Assembly: GCF_014697025.1 (NCBI RefSeq)
Contig: NZ_JACJRC010000020.1
Coordinates: forward strand, 1-64,000
Direction of reading: 5' to 3'
Origin: Alkalinema sp. FACHB-956
GTDB lineage: Bacteria; Cyanobacteriota; Cyanobacteriia; Leptolyngbyales; Leptolyngbyaceae
Length of the DNA stretch: 64,000 nucleotides
Below, piece by piece: positions 43,500 to 52,417 of the stretch. The notes beneath the pieces were generated by a model, which saw only the letters and a list, made by a program, of their open reading frames with translations, searched no databases and was not told where the DNA came from. The translations under genes and the position numbers were made by a program. The first letter of the stretch is position 1, and every line of letters begins with the position of its first letter.

Positions 43500-44567
43500 T
43501 TAACGCACCGTCCCCCGTAGGGCTTCCGCATCGATCGGTTTTAGCAGGTAAATTTTCAACAGGTGCCCCAAAATCCCCAGTTGCAACGGTAGCTTGCGCA
43601 GGGCTTTTACCCATTGGGGTTGGTTGGACTGGTTGACTTCGGTGATCTTGAGATTGAGTTCGGAACATTCAGACAAGCGTTGGAAAAACTCTGGATGTTC
43701 CGTATCCAGCACTGACGGGAACGTGCGGGCGGCAGTTTCATTCGTCCGCCGGATCACATCTTCATCAAACGCCGTTGGATCAATACCCAAAAGGCCATAG
43801 AACCCCGATCGCTCATGCACCGTTAACGTGTGGGTGGCAAAGACGGTGAGTAGGAAAAACCGACTCCAGAGCCGCGATTGCCAAGTCTGCCACAACTGCG
43901 GCTGCGATCGCAGCAAGGCTTTAAAAATATCCCCATGGCGATTTTCATCCTGACACCAGGGTTCAAAGTAGCGGAAGAGGGGGTAGAAGTGATTTTCGGG
44001 ATGGGCTTGCAGGTGACGATGGATCAGAATATAGCGCCAGTAGCCAATTTTTTCCGATAGGTAAACGGTATAAATCACCCATTCGATCGGGAAAAACGTA
44101 TAGGTGCGCGCCTTCGTTAACTTCGCCAAATCCATAGATCGGTTAAAGTCGCCCATGGCCTTGTTGAGGAATCCGGCGTGGCGGGCTTCGTCCCGTGCCA
44201 TCAGATGGAAGATTTCCGACAAGACCGGGTTGCGATCCTTCAAGCGGCGGGACAGTTCCTTAAATAGCAAAAAGCCGGAAAATTCCGAAACACACGATCG
44301 CTCCAGGTAATCCAGAAACGCCTGCCGATCTTCCCCTTGCAGATGCTCCCACGATCGCTCAAAGGACTCATCCCGGACGAAGTGGTGCCGGTTGTAGTCC
44401 GCCCGCATTTCCGCAATCATGGCCTGAATCTCCTCATCCTGGGCGGAGAGATCCAACTGAGCTGCGACATCAAAGTTCGTCGTGTAGAAGCGAGGGGTCA
44501 GTAGATTTTCCTGAATCTCAGCATAGCCACGACTGCTTGCGATCGGCTTGGTGGGTGTTTCAACCAT
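43500..44567 (-). CDS. acsF: Mg-protoporphyrin IX monomethyl ester oxidative cyclase AcsF (ChlA)
   Basis: A di-iron oxygenase that forms the fifth ring of chlorophyll. The 355-residue product has iron-ligand motifs DEARHAG and DENRHGD and the family segment ENLLTPRFYTTNFDV. GAGGAAACC precedes ATG 44567. It is divergent from heme oxygenase and hemN with a 325-bp spacer. In cyanobacteria a second cyclase gene (chlA-II) clusters with a second heme oxygenase and hemN and is used at low oxygen; this arrangement suggests the gene is that isoform, although sequence alone does not separate the two with certainty. Confidence 0.95.
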   Translation of the reverse strand: MVETPTKPIASSRGYAEIQENLLTPRFYTTNFDVAAQLDLSAQDEEIQAMIAEMRADYNRHHFVRDESFERSWEHLQGEDRQAFLDYLERSCVSEFSGFLLFKELSRRLKDRNPVLSEIFHLMARDEARHAGFLNKAMGDFNRSMDLAKLTKARTYTFFPIEWVIYTVYLSEKIGYWRYILIHRHLQAHPENHFYPLFRYFEPWCQDENRHGDIFKALLRSQPQLWQTWQSRLWSRFFLLTVFATHTLTVHERSGFYGLLGIDPTAFDEDVIRRTNETAARTFPSVLDTEHPEFFQRLSECSELNLKITEVNQSNQPQWVKALRKLPLQLGILGHLLKIYLLKPIDAEALRGTVR

Positions 44568-44892
44568 GGTTTCCTCAAAAAAATAAATGCAGGGTTATGA
44601 AGCGTTTAAAAGAGAGTCGGACAACTAGAAGAGGGTCAGACAACAATATCGTGATTTAACGAAAGAGTTAAAGAGAGTCTTGGCAGGAGTGCGGTCAACA
44701 GTCGCTCAATCCCTTCAAGTTAGTAACTTTCTCAGATTTTCAAGGACTTGGCAATCCTCTTACAAAAGTTCACCTCCGGGCCATTTGTCAGCCATTTGTT
44801 AAGTTATGAGAATACCCTCTTTATTTAATCCTTTAATCGCCATATGGTAATGAAACGTTTATAGAACTTTACCTGATACTAAGGGAATGGCC
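44568..44892. promoter_or_regulatory. Divergent promoter region of acsF and heme oxygenase
   Basis: About 325 bp, AT-rich towards the heme oxygenase side. It must contain both promoters. A direct repeat GCCATTTGT (about 44779 and 44790) is visible. A MarR-type activator (ChlR) is known to control such genes at low oxygen elsewhere, but no site can be assigned and no chlR gene is in the window. Confidence 0.45.
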
Positions 44893-45648
44893 ATGACTGT
44901 TGATCTTGCCTCACGCCTGCGGGAAGGAACCCAACAAGCCCATACCGCCGCCGAAAACTCAGCCTTTATGAAATGTTTTTTGAAGGGCATTGTGGAGATT
45001 CAGCCCCTGCGTAAGTTGCTGTCGGATTTATATTTTGTTTATTCTGCGTTGGAAGAAGAGCTGGCAAAGCACGCGGAGCATCCGATCGTGGGGTTGATCC
45101 AGTTTTCAGAGCTGAACCGTCAAGCGGCCTTGGAAGAGGATTTGACGTTTTACTACGGCCAAAACTGGTGGGAGCAGATCCGGATTTCCCCTGCTGCCCA
45201 AACCTACGTCAGCCGCATTTATGAAGTCTCCAATTCCGAACCTGCGCTATTAGTTGCCCATGCCTATGTGCGCTACCTGGGGGATCTATCCGGGGGGCAA
45301 GGGCTGAAGAGCATCATTCGATCGGCCCTGAATTTACCCGCCGATCGGGGCACCAGTTTGCATGAATTTAAAGCACTGCCAACGGTGGAGGCGCGGCGCA
45401 ATTTTAAGTTTACCTACCGCGATCGTTTGAATGAGCTCCCCGTGGATGAAGCGTTAGCAGAGCAAATCGTCAACGAAGCGATTCTGGCCTTTAGCCTCAA
45501 CCGCGACATTTTCCATGAGCTGGAACCCGAGGTCAAAGCGGCCATTGGTGACCATGTGTTTGAACTGTTGACGCGCCAGGATCGGCCTGGGAGTACCGCT
45601 GCCCATCCCAGAGGTCATGCGGCCCCGGAACTGGTCACAGCGGAATAA
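44893..45648 (+). CDS. ho: Heme oxygenase
   Basis: Ferredoxin-dependent enzyme that opens heme to biliverdin, the precursor of phycobilins. The 251-residue product has the axial histidine at residue 17 (REGTQQAHTAAEN) and the distal-helix glycines in VRYLGDLSGGQGLKSI, as in Ho1/Ho2. ATG 44893 is chosen over ATG 44887 because AAGGGA then sits at a good distance. It precedes hemN on the same strand and is divergent from acsF. By gene context it may be the Ho2-type isoform used when oxygen is low. Confidence 0.95.
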   Translation: MTVDLASRLREGTQQAHTAAENSAFMKCFLKGIVEIQPLRKLLSDLYFVYSALEEELAKHAEHPIVGLIQFSELNRQAALEEDLTFYYGQNWWEQIRISPAAQTYVSRIYEVSNSEPALLVAHAYVRYLGDLSGGQGLKSIIRSALNLPADRGTSLHEFKALPTVEARRNFKFTYRDRLNELPVDEALAEQIVNEAILAFSLNRDIFHELEPEVKAAIGDHVFELLTRQDRPGSTAAHPRGHAAPELVTAE

Positions 45649-45663
45649 TTTGTGCCCACCCTG

Positions 45664-45689
45664 CTTATTAAGGGGGATTTAGGGGGATC
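45664..45689. repeat. Solo copy of dispersed CTTATTAAGGGGG repeat
   Basis: CTTATTAAGGGGGATTTAGG and the following GGGATC lie between ho and hemN. The same element occurs in the 55.1-55.2 kb inverted pair. Confidence 0.7.
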
Positions 45690-45822
45690 GAAAACCTACG
45701 ATCGACGGTAAACCCATTTCAATTCACCACCTTAGGGAATTGCCTTGAGTGATGTTATTCCCTTCGCCTATAACATCGCTCATCCCCTCACTATAGTCAC
45801 AGAAAGGAGAACATTAAGTCCA

Positions 45823-47220
45823 ATGCAGCTTACGTCCCAAGATGTCACCTTCGACGCCAACCTACTCCAGAAGTACGATCGACCCCTACCCCGCTACACC
45901 AGCTATCCACCCGCGACGCAATTGGATACGGACTTTAATGCCATTGACTTAGTAACTTCGATCGCCGTTGGTAATCACAAACAATCCCCTTTATCGATTT
46001 ACTGTCACATTCCCTTTTGTGAAACCCCTTGTTACTTCTGCGGTTGCAACACCATCATCACCCAGCGCAAAGCCGTTGCTGAACCCTATTTGGATTACTT
46101 AATTCGCGACATCGCCCAAACGGGAGCACTGGTCAAAGGCGAACAACGGGTCCAGCAATTGCACTGGGGCGGTGGCACGCCGAACTATTTGTCCCTCGAT
46201 CAAGTTGAACGGCTGTGGAATGCGCTGCATGAGCATTTTTCCTTTGATCCGGCAGCGGAAGTTTCCATTGAAGTCAATCCCCGTTACCTCGATCGGGATT
46301 ATATCCATGGCTTAAAAGCGCTGGGCTTTAACCGTATCAGCTTTGGCATTCAGGATTTCAATCCTCAGGTGCAGGAAGCCATTAACCGGGTGCAGCCGGA
46401 AGAAATGCTGTTCCAGGTCATGGACTGGATGCGGGAAGCGCAGTTTGAGAGTGTCAATATTGATTTAATTTACGGCTTGCCCTTCCAAACCCTGGCGACA
46501 TTCCGGGAAACGATCGCCAAAACCATTCAACTCAACCCCGATCGCATTGCAGTGTTCAACTTTGCCTATGTGCCTTGGTTGAAGCCCATTCAAAAGCGGA
46601 TGCCCTTGGACGCCATGCCCGTGGCAGCGGAAAAATTGGAAATCCTGCGCATGACGATCGATGAGCTCACCCACCAGGGCTATGTCTTCCTAGGCATGGA
46701 TCACTTTGCCAAACCCAACGATGAATTGGCGATCGCCCAGCGCAATGGCCAACTCCATCGCAATTTCCAAGGCTACACCACCAAACCGGAATCCGATCTG
46801 TTGGGCTTTGGGGTCACCTCAATCAGCATGTTGCATGATGTCTATGCCCAAAACCACAAGCGACTGAAAGATTACTACAAAGCGATCGATGCCAAGGAAC
46901 TGCCGATCGAACGGGGCGTCACCCTCGATCGGGATGATGTCCTGCGGCGGGCGATCATCATGGAATTGATGTGTCAGTTCCGCTTAGACAAGGTGGCTGT
47001 AGAGGAAAAATACGGCCTGCATTTTGACCACGACTTTGATGAATACTTTGCCCAGGAAAGCGCAGAACTGGATGCCCTCGCCGCCGATGGCCTGTTGGTG
47101 CGATCGGCCAACCACTTGGAAATCACCCCAGCGGGACGGCTGTTGATTCGCAATGTCGCATCGGTGTTTGATGCCTACCTGCGTCGTCAGAATAAGGCGG
47201 CTTTCTCACGATCAATCTAG
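45823..47220 (+). CDS. hemN: Oxygen-independent coproporphyrinogen III oxidase HemN
   Basis: A radical SAM enzyme that decarboxylates coproporphyrinogen III without oxygen in heme and chlorophyll synthesis. The 465-residue product has the CHIPFCETPCYFCGC cluster motif (61-75), the HWGGGTPNYL loop and the SIEVNPRYL segment of true HemN, and ends in the HemN C-terminal domain. The frame is open to 45745, but ATG 45823 with AAGGAG upstream matches family starts. Co-directional with heme oxygenase; both support tetrapyrrole synthesis at low oxygen. Confidence 0.96.
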   Translation: MQLTSQDVTFDANLLQKYDRPLPRYTSYPPATQLDTDFNAIDLVTSIAVGNHKQSPLSIYCHIPFCETPCYFCGCNTIITQRKAVAEPYLDYLIRDIAQTGALVKGEQRVQQLHWGGGTPNYLSLDQVERLWNALHEHFSFDPAAEVSIEVNPRYLDRDYIHGLKALGFNRISFGIQDFNPQVQEAINRVQPEEMLFQVMDWMREAQFESVNIDLIYGLPFQTLATFRETIAKTIQLNPDRIAVFNFAYVPWLKPIQKRMPLDAMPVAAEKLEILRMTIDELTHQGYVFLGMDHFAKPNDELAIAQRNGQLHRNFQGYTTKPESDLLGFGVTSISMLHDVYAQNHKRLKDYYKAIDAKELPIERGVTLDRDDVLRRAIIMELMCQFRLDKVAVEEKYGLHFDHDFDEYFAQESAELDALAADGLLVRSANHLEITPAGRLLIRNVASVFDAYLRRQNKAAFSRSI

Positions 47221-47589
47221 CAAACGCGATCTAGCAGTCGCGATCGCGCAGACTCGTAGCAGCCCCCTAACGCCCCTGCAAATTAACCATCAGCCATCTT
47301 GACTTCTAATGTGTTATATCGTTAAATAGTTATATATTCAGTCTGAAGCGACTGCGGTCTTCAATTCATTCCCTTCCTTCATGACCGATCCTCTCCAAAA
47401 AGCTGAGTTTGTGATTGCGATTTCGATAAACACGATCGTCCAGATTGCAGCCATCGAATCCCTTCACAGATCCACGAATTGAAGCCGTAGGCTGGCAGTA
47501 CAAGAGCCTCCATCACTGCGGACCCCAGCCATTGCACTCTTTGCAATTTCGACTTTCAGGCTGAATTCACTTCAACGAGCACAGAAATC
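47221..47589. promoter_or_regulatory. psbA upstream region with direct repeat
   Basis: About 370 bp between hemN and psbA. GTTATAT occurs at 47313-47319 and 47329-47335, a 16-bp period in an AT-rich patch about 255-280 bp before the psbA start. This might bind a regulator, but no known consensus was matched. Confidence 0.35.
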
Positions 47590-48678
47590 ATGACAACCAC
47601 TTTCAATGATTTCCAGAAGAGAAGTTTCTGGGATCGGTTTTGTAACTGGGTGACCAGTACCGAAAATCGACTGTACGTTGGCTGGTTTGGGGTTCTGCTC
47701 ATTCCAACCGCCCTTGTTGCAACCATTGTTTTTATTCTGGCCTTTATTGCAGCCCCTCCCGTGGATATCGACGGGATTCGGGAGCCCGTCACGGGGTCTC
47801 TCCTGGGGGGAAATAACCTCATCACTGCCGCCGTTGTTCCGTCTTCCAATGCGATCGGGTTGCACTTATATCCCATTTGGGATGCGGCCAGCTTGGATGA
47901 ATGGCTGTACAACGGTGGCCCCTACCAAGTGATTGTGTTTCACTTCCTGATTGCCATCTATGCTTACATGGGTCGGCAGTGGGAATTGAGTTACCGCTTG
48001 GGAATGCGGCCTTGGATTCCAGTGGCTTACTCTGCCCCCTTGGCCGCAGCAACCTCGGTCTTGTTGATTTATCCGATCGGTCAAGGCAGTTTTTCCGACG
48101 GGTTAATGCTAGGCATTTCCGGGACGTTTAACTTCATGATCGTATTTACAGCGGAGCATAATATTTTGATGCATCCGTTCCATATGTTGGGTGTGATTGG
48201 AGTGTTTGGGGGAGCGTTGTTCTCTGCAATGCACGGTTCGTTGGTAACGTCTTCCCTAGTTCGTGAGACGAGCGAAGTGGAATCTCTCAACTACGGCTAC
48301 AAATTTGGTCAGGAAGAGGAAACCTACAATATCGTGGCCGCCCATGGCTACTTCGGTCGCTTGATTTTCCAATACGCTTCGTTTAACAACAGTCGATCGC
48401 TGCACTTTTTGCTAGCGGCTTGGCCCGTGGTGGGGATTTGGTTCGCATCCCTCGGGATCAGCACCATGTCCTTTAACCTCAATGGGTTTAATTTCAACGC
48501 TTCGATTCTGGATAGTCAGGGTCAAGTCGTGGATACCTGGGCTGATTTGTTAAACCGTGCCAACTTGGGAATTGAAGTGATGCACGAACGCAATGCCCAC
48601 AACTTCCCCTTGGATTTAGCGGCGACGGGATCTGGAGAACCGATCGCGCTGTCTGCTCCAACGATTAGTGTTTCCTAG
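47590..48678 (+). CDS. psbA: Photosystem II D1 protein, low-oxygen D1' variant
   Basis: The reaction-centre D1 subunit, 362 residues with five membrane helices. Cofactor residues are intact: Tyr161, Asp170, His190, His198, His215, Ser264, His272, His332, Glu333, His337, Asp342 and the processing site after Ala344. It carries the three substitutions used to define microaerobic D1' (Ala80, Leu158, Ala286 instead of Gly, Phe, Thr) and also Pro144 and Met173, which I recall from PsbA2 of Thermosynechococcus. Gln130 is of the low-light type. It sits downstream of ho-hemN, consistent with induction at low oxygen. As a variant it is expected to be one of several psbA copies in the genome. Confidence 0.95.
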
Positions 48679-48745
48679 ATGATTGCTTCTGACGTTGAGT
48701 TTCCTTAGGTTATCGGTTTGGCGAGATAACTACCTAATGACTCCC

Positions 48746-48773
48746 GCGAGTTGGTATTTCGGTATCAACTCGC
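48746..48773 (+). other. Hairpin between psbA and the desaturase gene
   Basis: GCGAGTTGGTA and TATCAACTCGC pair over 11 positions (one G-T) around the loop TTTCGG. It lies 67 bp after psbA and 51 bp before the desaturase start. No T-run follows, so partial termination or mRNA stabilisation is more likely than full termination. Confidence 0.5.
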
Positions 48774-48824
48774 ATTCCTGCGGTGGTTGTTGTTCATTAA
48801 TTTTCAAGGTGTGGAGGAGTTGTT

Positions 48825-49673
48825 ATGACCGCAGAATTAATGCCGGAAAAACCGGAAAAACCCCTAAAGCTCGATCGACGGGCGGTGGTTTTCTTTGCGG
48901 CGGTTCATGGGGTGGCTTTGCTGGCCCCTTGGTTTTTCACTTGGCAGGCGTTGGGACTGCTGATCTTCTTACATTGGCTGCTAGGCAGTGTTGGTATTTG
49001 TTTGGGCTATCACCGGCTGCTGAGCCATCGTAGTTTTCAAGTGCCGCAGTGGTTGGAATATCTCATTGGATTTATTGGGGCTTTAGCCCTGCAAGGGGGG
49101 CCGATTTTTTGGGTCAGTGGTCACCGTCTGCACCACGCCTTTACGGAAGATGAGGTGAAGGATCCCTACTCCGCACGGCGCGGGTTTTGGTGGAGTCATA
49201 TGCTGTGGATCTTATACCCCCGTCCAGAATTCTTTGAAAACCGTCAGTACGAACGCTTTGCCCCAGATCTCGCCCGCGATCGCTTCTATTGCTGGCTCGA
49301 TCGCTACTACATTCTTCTGCAAATTCCCTTCGCGATCGGCTTGTATTGGCTAGGGGGTTGGCCGTTTGTCATCTATGGCGTGTTTGTTCGTGCAGTTTGT
49401 CTGTGGCATAGCACTTGGTTTATCAATTCCGTAACCCATTGCTGGGGCTATCGCACCTTCAATACCGCAGACAATTCCCGTAACCTCTGGTGGGCGGCCA
49501 TTCTCACCTATGGCGAAGGCTGGCATAACAACCACCACGCCTATCCCAACGTAGCCAAAGCCGGTTGGCGATGGTGGGAAATTGATCCCACTTGGTGGGT
49601 CATCCAAGTCCTGCGGGGATTGGGACTCGCGCAAAAAGTTGTTATGCCGCCGGTTTACAACCGTTATCGCTAA
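48825..49673 (+). CDS. Acyl-lipid / acyl-CoA-type fatty acid desaturase (delta-9 like)
   Basis: A 282-residue di-iron membrane desaturase. The three histidine boxes are HRLLSH (63-68), HRLHH (100-104) and HNNHH near 240, with the GNVRGNH-like segment replaced by NSVTHCWGYRTF as in the DesC/SCD1 family. Four membrane spans are predicted. It lies 146 bp after the D1' psbA on the same strand. Members of this family introduce the first double bond into membrane lipids; the position of action is inferred. A low-oxygen form with higher oxygen affinity is plausible from context. Confidence 0.9.
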   Translation: MTAELMPEKPEKPLKLDRRAVVFFAAVHGVALLAPWFFTWQALGLLIFLHWLLGSVGICLGYHRLLSHRSFQVPQWLEYLIGFIGALALQGGPIFWVSGHRLHHAFTEDEVKDPYSARRGFWWSHMLWILYPRPEFFENRQYERFAPDLARDRFYCWLDRYYILLQIPFAIGLYWLGGWPFVIYGVFVRAVCLWHSTWFINSVTHCWGYRTFNTADNSRNLWWAAILTYGEGWHNNHHAYPNVAKAGWRWWEIDPTWWVIQVLRGLGLAQKVVMPPVYNRYR

Positions 49674-51926: not shown

Positions 51927-52180
51927 GTTCGATCTGACCTGAGATCTGACCTAAGTAAGTTTCCCTACGACAGAGATACGACAGAGAACTGTAGGGACAT
52001 CCGAATCTAAAACGACGTAACAAATGTTTACATCTTCGCAATATTTCGTTACATTGTTAATCAAGGGTGGTTGAAGCAAGGCATTCCTGGTTACGCACCT
52101 AACTTGATGTAACGCCCTCTCTCAACCAACCTTTGAATCTCAATCAACCGTTTATCTCAATCAATCCACAGGTAACAATC

Positions 52181-52417
52181 ATGAGAACTGACTTAGAATT
52201 CCGTCGTCCCGAACTCTTTGGCCCCGTTGTCTTCCGTCCCGAATTCAACGCTTTCCAAGAAATCAATGCCGCCCAAGCTTGGTCGCTCTTTTTCACCGGC
52301 AGTCAGGAAGATAAGGCCCTCGGTTTCAATCCCGAAATTGGCCGCTTCTTTACCAATGCGCTGATCGCGATCGGAGTGAGTGGTGTCCTTCTGGCGACCT
52401 TCTTCACGGGGCAATAG
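52181..52417 (+). CDS. Small single-span membrane protein, unknown
   Basis: A 78-residue protein with one membrane segment near the C-terminus (FFTNALIAIGVSGVLLATFF) and a conserved-looking soluble N-terminus (RTDLEFRRPELFGPVVFRPEFNAFQEINAAQAWSLFF, read in parts). The GFNPEIGRF step before the helix vaguely recalls high-light-inducible proteins, but the ExxNGR chlorophyll-binding motif is absent. AGGT precedes ATG 52181; the frame is open to 52133. A strong terminator follows, which suggests its own transcript. Confidence 0.65.
   Translation: MRTDLEFRRPELFGPVVFRPEFNAFQEINAAQAWSLFFTGSQEDKALGFNPEIGRFFTNALIAIGVSGVLLATFFTGQ

Follow-up and report, generated by a model that had tools for sequence, protein, structure and literature searches.

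A palindrome shared by the two units of a candidate low-oxygen photosynthesis locus in Alkalinema sp. FACHB-956

Are low-oxygen isoforms for pigment synthesis, photosystem II and lipid desaturation grouped at one place in a cyanobacterial genome, and if so, what would switch them together? The question is raised by positions 43500-49673 of a 64,000-nucleotide stretch of Alkalinema sp. FACHB-956 (contig NZ_JACJRC010000020.1, positions 1 to 64,000), which we call the window. A sequence-only reading had described there an acsF gene divergent from genes for heme oxygenase (HO) and HemN, followed by a variant psbA and a fatty-acid desaturase gene, and had proposed such a grouping. In the excerpts of the papers cited here, and excerpts are meant at every citation below, regulation of low-oxygen tetrapyrrole genes has so far been described through ChlR in a few model strains; the chlAII/acsFII-ho2-hemN cluster, its control by ChlR, desF in Synechococcus sp. 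PCC 7002 and the psbA1 response are published (PMC4500134). We found that both units of the window locus have the same palindromic sequence in front, one copy before ho2 in the gap common with acsF and one before psbA. Because this palindrome is conserved and separates the isoforms, we infer that it is an operator, and the sequences make shared control through this one operator very likely. The locus itself is probably an island for photosynthesis at low oxygen. It would have two transcription units, one in which acsF-II and ho2-hemN diverge and one that joins psbA for the D1 variant D1' with desF. Its features are as follows.

43500..44567, minus strand: acsF-II, oxygen-dependent Mg-protoporphyrin monomethyl ester cyclase, putative low-oxygen isoform (open reading frame (ORF), family profile, tree)
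44829..44862, plus strand: proposed palindromic operator in the acsF/ho divergent gap (matrix scans, simulation)
44887..45648, plus strand: ho2, heme oxygenase of the HO2 type (ORF, PF01126, structure match, tree); an in-frame ATG at 44893 is also possible
45745..47220, plus strand: hemN, oxygen-independent coproporphyrinogen III oxidase (ORF, TIGR00538); the ATG at 45823, preceded by AGGAG, is a likelier start than 45745
47299..47304, plus strand: TTGACT, possible -35 element of the psbA promoter (resemblance only)
47311..47344, plus strand: proposed palindromic operator upstream of psbA (matrix scans, simulation)
47590..48678, plus strand: psbA encoding D1', micro-oxic type, with A80, P144, L158, M173 and A286 (residues, structure match, tree)
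48825..49673, plus strand: desF-type desaturase (ORF, PF00487, tree)

The gene order in the sequence-only reading was confirmed by ORFs and family profiles: AcsF matched TIGR02029 at 507.8 bits, HemN TIGR00538 at 701.1 and PsbA TIGR01151 at 714.3, and the Pfam models Heme_oxygenase (PF01126) and FA_desaturase (PF00487) scored 242.4 and 73.0 bits. By ORF ends, the gaps measure 319 (acsF-ho), 96 (ho-hemN), 369 (hemN-psbA) and 146 bases (psbA-desaturase).

Are these genes the low-oxygen isoforms, as had been proposed? The assembly of the same genome (6.16 Mb, 59 contigs, 99.98% complete; G000 in our numbering, in which L stands for loci, C for contigs and f for families) contains a second acsF, a second heme oxygenase and a second desaturase (desC), which are 56%, 49% and 50% identical to the window copies. 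It also has a canonical psbA on contig C4, 81% identical, with G80, C144, F158, P173 and T286, so none of the four is a sole copy. Ends of further psbA copies lie at the ends of contigs C3, C13, C19 and C55, as would be seen if the assembly had merged identical copies. In trees, the acsF, ho, psbA and desaturase of the window lie apart from the genome's own aerobic-type copies and with low-oxygen types. The desaturase tree was split at 100/100 into 49 rows including the window and 21 including the own second copy, which puts the window enzyme on the DesF side and agrees with the suggestion that it is a low-oxygen isoform; the name DesF is anchored here on L114 and L117, from genomes with PCC 7002-like gene order, and not on PCC 7002 itself. 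With a quick tree method, a 23-row AcsF split at 100 held the type-I rows and excluded the window. Twenty of these rows are type-I (20 fetched rows and the own copy, after removal of identical ones) and the other three are L042, L043 and L119, the last of which (from G056) the tree thus placed with type I.

The HO tree, also made with the quick method, gathered 19 HO1-type rows, including the own second copy and all fetched as lying outside an acsF cluster, in one group at 99 without the window. A wider group of 45 at 100, again without the window, added 26 rows that are borne in acsF clusters: L083, and 25 that belong to family f7 or to strains named Calothrix, Brasilonema, Scytonema, Tolypothrix or Nostocales. 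Because these 26 are nearer to the HO1-type group than the window is, lying in the cluster is not the same as being of the HO2 type. The window protein scored 308.8 bits against the solved 'Heme oxygenase 2' (1wov) and 259.4 against 'Heme oxygenase 1' (1we1), both of which we take to be from Synechocystis.

The residues that had been read from the window D1 all proved correct: positions 80, 144, 158, 173 and 286 are A, P, L, M and A. It keeps D170, E189, H332, E333, D342 and A344, the ligands of the Mn cluster, and with these intact it would be a D1' and not a rogue D1, one that could in principle hold the oxygen-evolving cluster. Its best solved match was 7yq2, 'Photosystem II protein D1 2', at 700.6 bits (next 681.7), presumably the PsbA2-type D1 of Thermosynechococcus, which has the same five residues; the window has Q130, Y124 and T187 whereas 7yq2 has E130, F124 and Q187. 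Six related D1' proteins carry Q130, Y124 and S187, where 187 is usually Q, and four of the six adjoin an arsR gene. In the psbA tree, whose bootstrap had not fully settled, the window was one of 12 rows grouped at 97/96, of which 11 have A80 and one (L235) has G80, and the own C4 copy fell among 18 canonical rows (89/92). Seven further D1'-type rows lay outside the group of 12, six of them together (98/94) and L166. Taken together, these comparisons indicate that the acsF, ho, psbA and desaturase of the window are almost certainly low-oxygen isoforms, and for these four the proposed grouping of pigment, photosystem II and lipid functions at one locus is supported.

How does this arrangement compare with known ones? 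In PCC 7002 the same three tetrapyrrole isoforms and a desF-type desaturase are likewise clustered and have a low-oxygen role, with chlR just upstream of acsFII, which leads the cluster (PMC4500134). In the window, by contrast, acsF is divergent and the D1' psbA stands between hemN and desF; the chlR homologue of this genome is found on a different contig, and both units have another palindrome in front. PCC 7002 desF was described as a low-oxygen DesC isoform under ChlR (PMC4500134), and the desaturase link is thus not new in kind. In Synechocystis 6803, D1' (psbA1) and chlAII-ho2-hemN respond alike to low oxygen and ChlR-D35H binds the psbA1 promoter (PMC4500134); psbA1 lies elsewhere in that genome, whereas the window psbA belongs to the cluster and has a palindromic site to itself. 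In Acaryochloris, acsF, ho and hemN increase under low oxygen (PMC5295598), and in strain hensonii low-oxygen forms of enzymes occur together with sqr and with psbA of groups 2 and 3 (PMC5776472). The locus content is a new arrangement of known genes, acsFII-ho2-hemN-desF of PCC 7002 and psbA1 of Synechocystis, and it is the regulatory part that is new.

An AcsF search of 244 genomes of the phylum found AcsF at 1e-50 in 115 of them. Among the matches listed, 74 loci from 69 genomes were surveyed (73 rows of at least 505 bits, and L119 of G056), with up to 9.3 kb on each side of acsF; nine stretches were shorter than 15 kb. We found ho in 44 of the 74, hemN in 46, a desaturase of the DesF type in 12 and a D1' psbA in 3, the last two together in one locus (L107). 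A rogue D1 occurred in two; these rogue-type proteins (D189, A333, I342, S344) are encoded 3.7-3.8 kb from acsF in family f7 (L094:4435, L101:4591), and their promoters lack the palindrome. Two Oscillatoria loci (L018 and L045, among 31 named loci) hold desF and D1' in the stretch, psbA being located beyond acsF. DesF-type desaturases were present in 41 of the 244 genomes at 1e-105.

It might therefore be asked whether psbA-desF moved in beside the tetrapyrrole cluster recently, as a chance neighbour regulated apart. In none of the 74 surveyed acsF loci does psbA lie between hemN and a desaturase, and three loci of another family (L148, L149 and L154) keep a D1' psbA-desF pair, in the same order, away from acsF. 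Against this, desF follows hemN in several lineages, D1' psbA is near acsF-II in others, and the two window units share the palindrome, so that we regard a chance neighbourhood as very improbable. The psbA and desaturase trees, with open forks, gave no evidence that the window pair descends from the pair of family f9.

The shared palindrome was first seen when D1' psbA upstream regions were read side by side. It has the approximate form ATAACT-N4-AGTTAT, is extended in some genomes to TTAATAACT-N4-AGTTATTAA, and in L167 has arms of 10 bases around 4. A first matrix of 26 columns was built from seven D1' psbA promoter sites outside the window, aligned by eye. Over the 64 kb of the window, this psbA-trained matrix gave its best site at 47315 (+) upstream of psbA (24.1 bits) and its second separate site at 44833 (+) upstream of ho (16.2 bits), followed by a third at 13.9. 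Simulated whole windows had maxima with a mean of 13.0 and a top value of 19.9; judged by this matrix alone, therefore, only the psbA site rises above the simulations. A second, acsF-trained matrix was made from 35 unique acsF-upstream sites, all from other genomes and none from the window. It ranked 44829-44862 first (28.0 bits) and 47311-47344 second (22.2), with the next separate site at 14.9, while the maximum in 60 simulated 64-kb windows (order-2 Markov) was 17.5 and 2,000 simulated 400-bp intergenic stretches never exceeded 18.0.

Could the palindrome be no more than a strong -10 promoter element in AT-rich DNA, the low-oxygen isoforms not being switched together? The site does overlap a -10-like sequence, and five psbA copies (L165, L167, L170, L018 and L045) have, by eye, TTGACA shortly upstream. 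The palindrome is absent, on the other hand, from all five canonical psbA promoters tested, and at the genome's own aerobic copies it is weaker: the psbA-trained matrix gave 6.1 bits for acsF, 11.6 for ho, 4.0 for desC and 14.1 for psbA. Column-permuted matrices of the same composition fail to reproduce the pattern, and the long arms in L167 also speak against a simple promoter element, which we consider quite unlikely. A sigma-70 promoter scan found 3 sites where 6.4 were expected.

The operator reading extends well beyond this genome. The palindrome was surveyed in 71 loci (the 74 without the training locus L073 and two short loci). With the psbA-trained matrix, 43 of the 71 had the top site of the stretch no more than 600 bp upstream of acsF, and 54 had a site of rank 2 or better there; 30 column-permuted matrices gave rank 1 in 1 to 15 loci and rank 2 or better in 3 to 25, and the 600 bp downstream of acsF held the top site in one. 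With the acsF-trained matrix, 13 D1' psbA promoters with at least 300 bp upstream scored 15.3-32.7 bits, five canonical promoters 4.6-10.2 and two rogue promoters 7.2. Seven of the 13 had served to train the first matrix, and L045 and L149 nearly duplicate loci used for that training; beyond these, the scores were 25.3 (L079), 22.2 (the window), 17.5 (L166) and 16.1 (L107). At L166:5001-7472 a canonical and a D1' psbA stand in tandem, with 6.0 bits before the former and 17.5 before the latter.

Other genes have the site as well. We found sqr in 12 of 20 genomes searched and scored its upstream region in five; four had an acsF-trained site of 26.3-31.5 bits (L165:8664, L170:9313, L255:2953 and L256:1279), in three cases in the gap to a divergent gene for an alternative Rieske protein, petC. 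This suggests that sulfide oxidation would belong to the same regulon in those genomes. In L133 a site of 30.7 bits lies 16 bp before the ORF of bchE, the anaerobic cyclase. In two loci bchE is found between hemN and desF (L050:4597-6642 and L018:3728-5764, both on the minus strand; L050 is of the same family as the window, and the L018 gene was named by its resemblance to that of L050), and the L050 BchE protein has, at its C-terminus, a receiver domain of the response-regulator kind (Pfam, residues 538-655). The window's own genome gave no bchE match at 1e-30, and an anaerobic cyclase is therefore not seen to stand in there. For desF, two of 32 stand-alone genes (L132-L163) stood out with the psbA-trained matrix, L135 at 29.4 and L153 at 15.9 bits, the rest being at or below 11.8. 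Of 17 cluster-borne desF genes, 16 had no site in the 140 bp upstream and one (L068) had 15.5 bits. Likewise, the palindrome was not found in the 146-bp psbA-desF gap of the window (7.2 and -3.5 bits). Since most desF genes have no site of their own, desF would join the control only in some genomes, and in the window through psbA, with which it is probably co-transcribed.

Is the locus then an ordinary ChlR regulon, as in PCC 7002? On this account, low oxygen would lead an Fe-S ChlR to activate acsF and ho-hemN, perhaps psbA-desF as well; the palindrome would be what the ChlR of this lineage binds, or irrelevant. The full ChlR-cluster gene set (acsF-II, ho2, hemN and desF) is present at the window locus, and these are known ChlR targets (PMC4500134). 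A homologue of chlR, which had been named as a gene to look for, is also present: it lies at G000:C3:355754-356092 (HxlR, 105 bits), has a four-cysteine pattern by eye and is 59% identical to a ChlR candidate from a genome whose gene order is like that of PCC 7002. It adjoins a divergent alternative-oxidase (PTOX-like) gene (L124:582-1947, contig C3), and at L029:5346-6609 a PTOX 70% identical to it lies beside chlR and near acsF. The palindrome is not the published ChlR motif, TTMCC-N3/4-GGWAA (PMC5295598, PMC13421787). In the acsF-ho, ho-hemN and hemN-psbA gaps the best matches to that motif had 2, 2 and 3 mismatches, no better than shuffles, and as an explanation of the island it was rejected for these three of the four gaps. 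The psbA-desC gap has a one-mismatch site at 48700-48712, equalled by 4 of 200 shuffles.

In other genomes, the palindrome scored 3.4-11.7 bits at all five loci with chlR in the acsF stretch. Within 300 bp of acsF, the ChlR motif was exact at L116, L117 and L118 and had one mismatch at L029, L078, L107 and L114; among 68 other loci it was never exact, with one mismatch in 5 and two or three in 63, a count made with no shuffle control and in which a single mismatch is common by chance. Five of these seven ChlR-type loci were chosen for chlR in the stretch, and L118 and L116 for a low palindrome score with a strong ChlR in the genome or genus (L118 is from G070, which has it, and L116 is of the same genus). 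As L116/L118 and L114/L117 are close relatives, we attach no probability to the contrast. Three genomes have the palindrome and no ChlR match at E 1e-3 (G145 with 26.2 bits, G014 with 19.5 and G074 with 19.2), and three, G033, G123 and the window's own genome, have both the palindrome and a strong ChlR match, so the separation is by locus and not by genome. Because its motif is not above chance in three gaps and another palindrome precedes both units, ChlR is probably not the main switch at the window locus, and a purely ChlR-based control appears unlikely. Given the homologue and the near-match in the psbA-desC gap, ChlR may act there as well.

If ChlR is not the main switch, what would bind the palindrome? 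An ArsR-family gene was found near acsF-II or D1' psbA in 13 loci, with one remote match in L024. Two of the proteins were tested; both contain HTH_5 and matched an NCBIfam ArsR/SmtB subfamily at 79-82 bits, above its cut-off. Membership in SqrR/BigR was tried and dropped, since the BigR model gave 31.7-38 bits against a cut-off of 155, and we call the proteins ArsR/SmtB family only. At all nine loci with such a gene in the acsF stretch, of which L073 also gave a psbA training site, the palindrome scored 18.0-26.3 bits. Of 13 arsR genes scored (the start of that in L154 was misread), seven had a site of at least 17 bits upstream, two of these in common with a divergent psbA, and acsF-trained sites of at least 21 bits precede arsR in L054, L073 and L165. 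In 12 readable sequences of the 14 matches, leaving out L154 (wrong frame) and L017 (no complete ORF), a cysteine of the first helix is at the same place in 8 and one residue earlier in 2 more, and 11 have a cysteine near the C-terminus by eye. This pattern resembles that of two-cysteine persulfide sensors such as SqrR. An SqrR-like motif, ATTC-N8-GAAT, was found in none of 13 regions upstream of psbA. Judging by gene neighbourhood, by the operator-like sites upstream of roughly half the arsR genes and by the contrast with loci that have chlR close by, we lean somewhat towards an ArsR-type repressor as the controller of both window operons; its identity is the least certain step of the mechanism.

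Several observations weigh against an operator shared in this way. The ho site is weak by the psbA-trained matrix, and one of 2,000 simulated 400-bp stretches reached its 16.2 bits; the test with the acsF-trained matrix is not fully independent, because its sites were chosen with the first matrix (at least 18 bits). The own canonical psbA promoter reaches 14.1 bits with the psbA-trained matrix (8.7 with the acsF-trained one), and the strong site at 44829-44862 is about 260 bp from the acsF start. Of the 74 surveyed loci, 20 score below 15 bits and 11 below 12, five of the latter outside the ChlR-type loci. The palindrome is missing from one of the five sqr regions (L073, -2.0 bits), from two of three bchE loci (L050 and L018, 1.8 and -1.0 bits) and upstream of 6 of the 13 scored arsR genes. 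No ArsR gene of the linked type was found in a search that covered the 64-kb window only. The one-mismatch ChlR-like site and the three genomes with both ChlR and the palindrome count on the same side.

How might such a switch work? In air, a two-cysteine ArsR/SmtB-family repressor dimer would sit on the palindrome, overlapping the -10 region. When oxygen falls or reactive sulfur rises, the repressor would release the operator, and chlorophyll, bilins, haem, a micro-oxic D1 and unsaturated lipids would then be made with isoforms suited to little oxygen. Which of the two signals is sensed, low oxygen or sulfur species, is a guess guided by the sqr/petC sites. It is conceivable, at somewhat less than an even chance, that in most cyanobacteria with low-oxygen isoforms these are controlled by an ArsR-family thiol- or sulfur-sensing repressor on one palindromic operator and not by ChlR. 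If so, the regulon would join acsF-II, ho2-hemN and in some genomes bchE, D1' and, in some genomes, desF and sqr/petC; the 'low-oxygen' genes would in fact be read out as sulfidic anoxia, and the window would show the regulon in compact form, five genes under two operators.

Parts of such a scheme have precedents. At Geitlerinema and other loci, low-oxygen (group 2/3) psbA, sqr and arsR-like genes lie close together and linked regulation has been suggested (PMC5061849); the excerpts name no operator and do not tie in acsF-II or ho2, unlike here. A review from 2026 on redox regulators in cyanobacteria names ChlR as the regulator of chlA2-ho2-hemN and RexT as an ArsR-family protein (PMC13421787). 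RexT of Anabaena PCC 7120 is a thiol-switch ArsR repressor in a cyanobacterium, as proposed here, whereas its motif ATTCG-N15-CGAAT, with trxA2 as target (PMC13421787), differs from the window palindrome. Our search of the open literature, with subscription papers mostly outside it, returned no description of the palindrome or of an ArsR regulator for these genes, and palindromic control is apparently undescribed.

The palindrome is widespread and marks the same isoforms, separating D1' psbA from canonical psbA by promoter alone, and with it an argument from neighbourhood becomes one about promoters, which can be tested and applies far beyond the genome in hand. Anoxia or sulfide sensing in cyanobacteria becomes directly testable with one protein and a 34-bp probe. 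The palindrome also offers a handle for predicting genes of the micro-oxic programme in genomes without expression data, which matters for photosynthesis both in sulfidic mats and in early oceans poor in oxygen.

Elsewhere in the window, a short ORF of 94 amino acids at 52133-52417 (+) had no Pfam or NCBIfam match at 0.001. High-scoring palindromes were also seen in other genomes before an efflux-pump-like ORF (L024:14500), a phosphatase-like ORF (L050:12517) and a short NifX-like ORF (L045:5566), all named by sequence reading.

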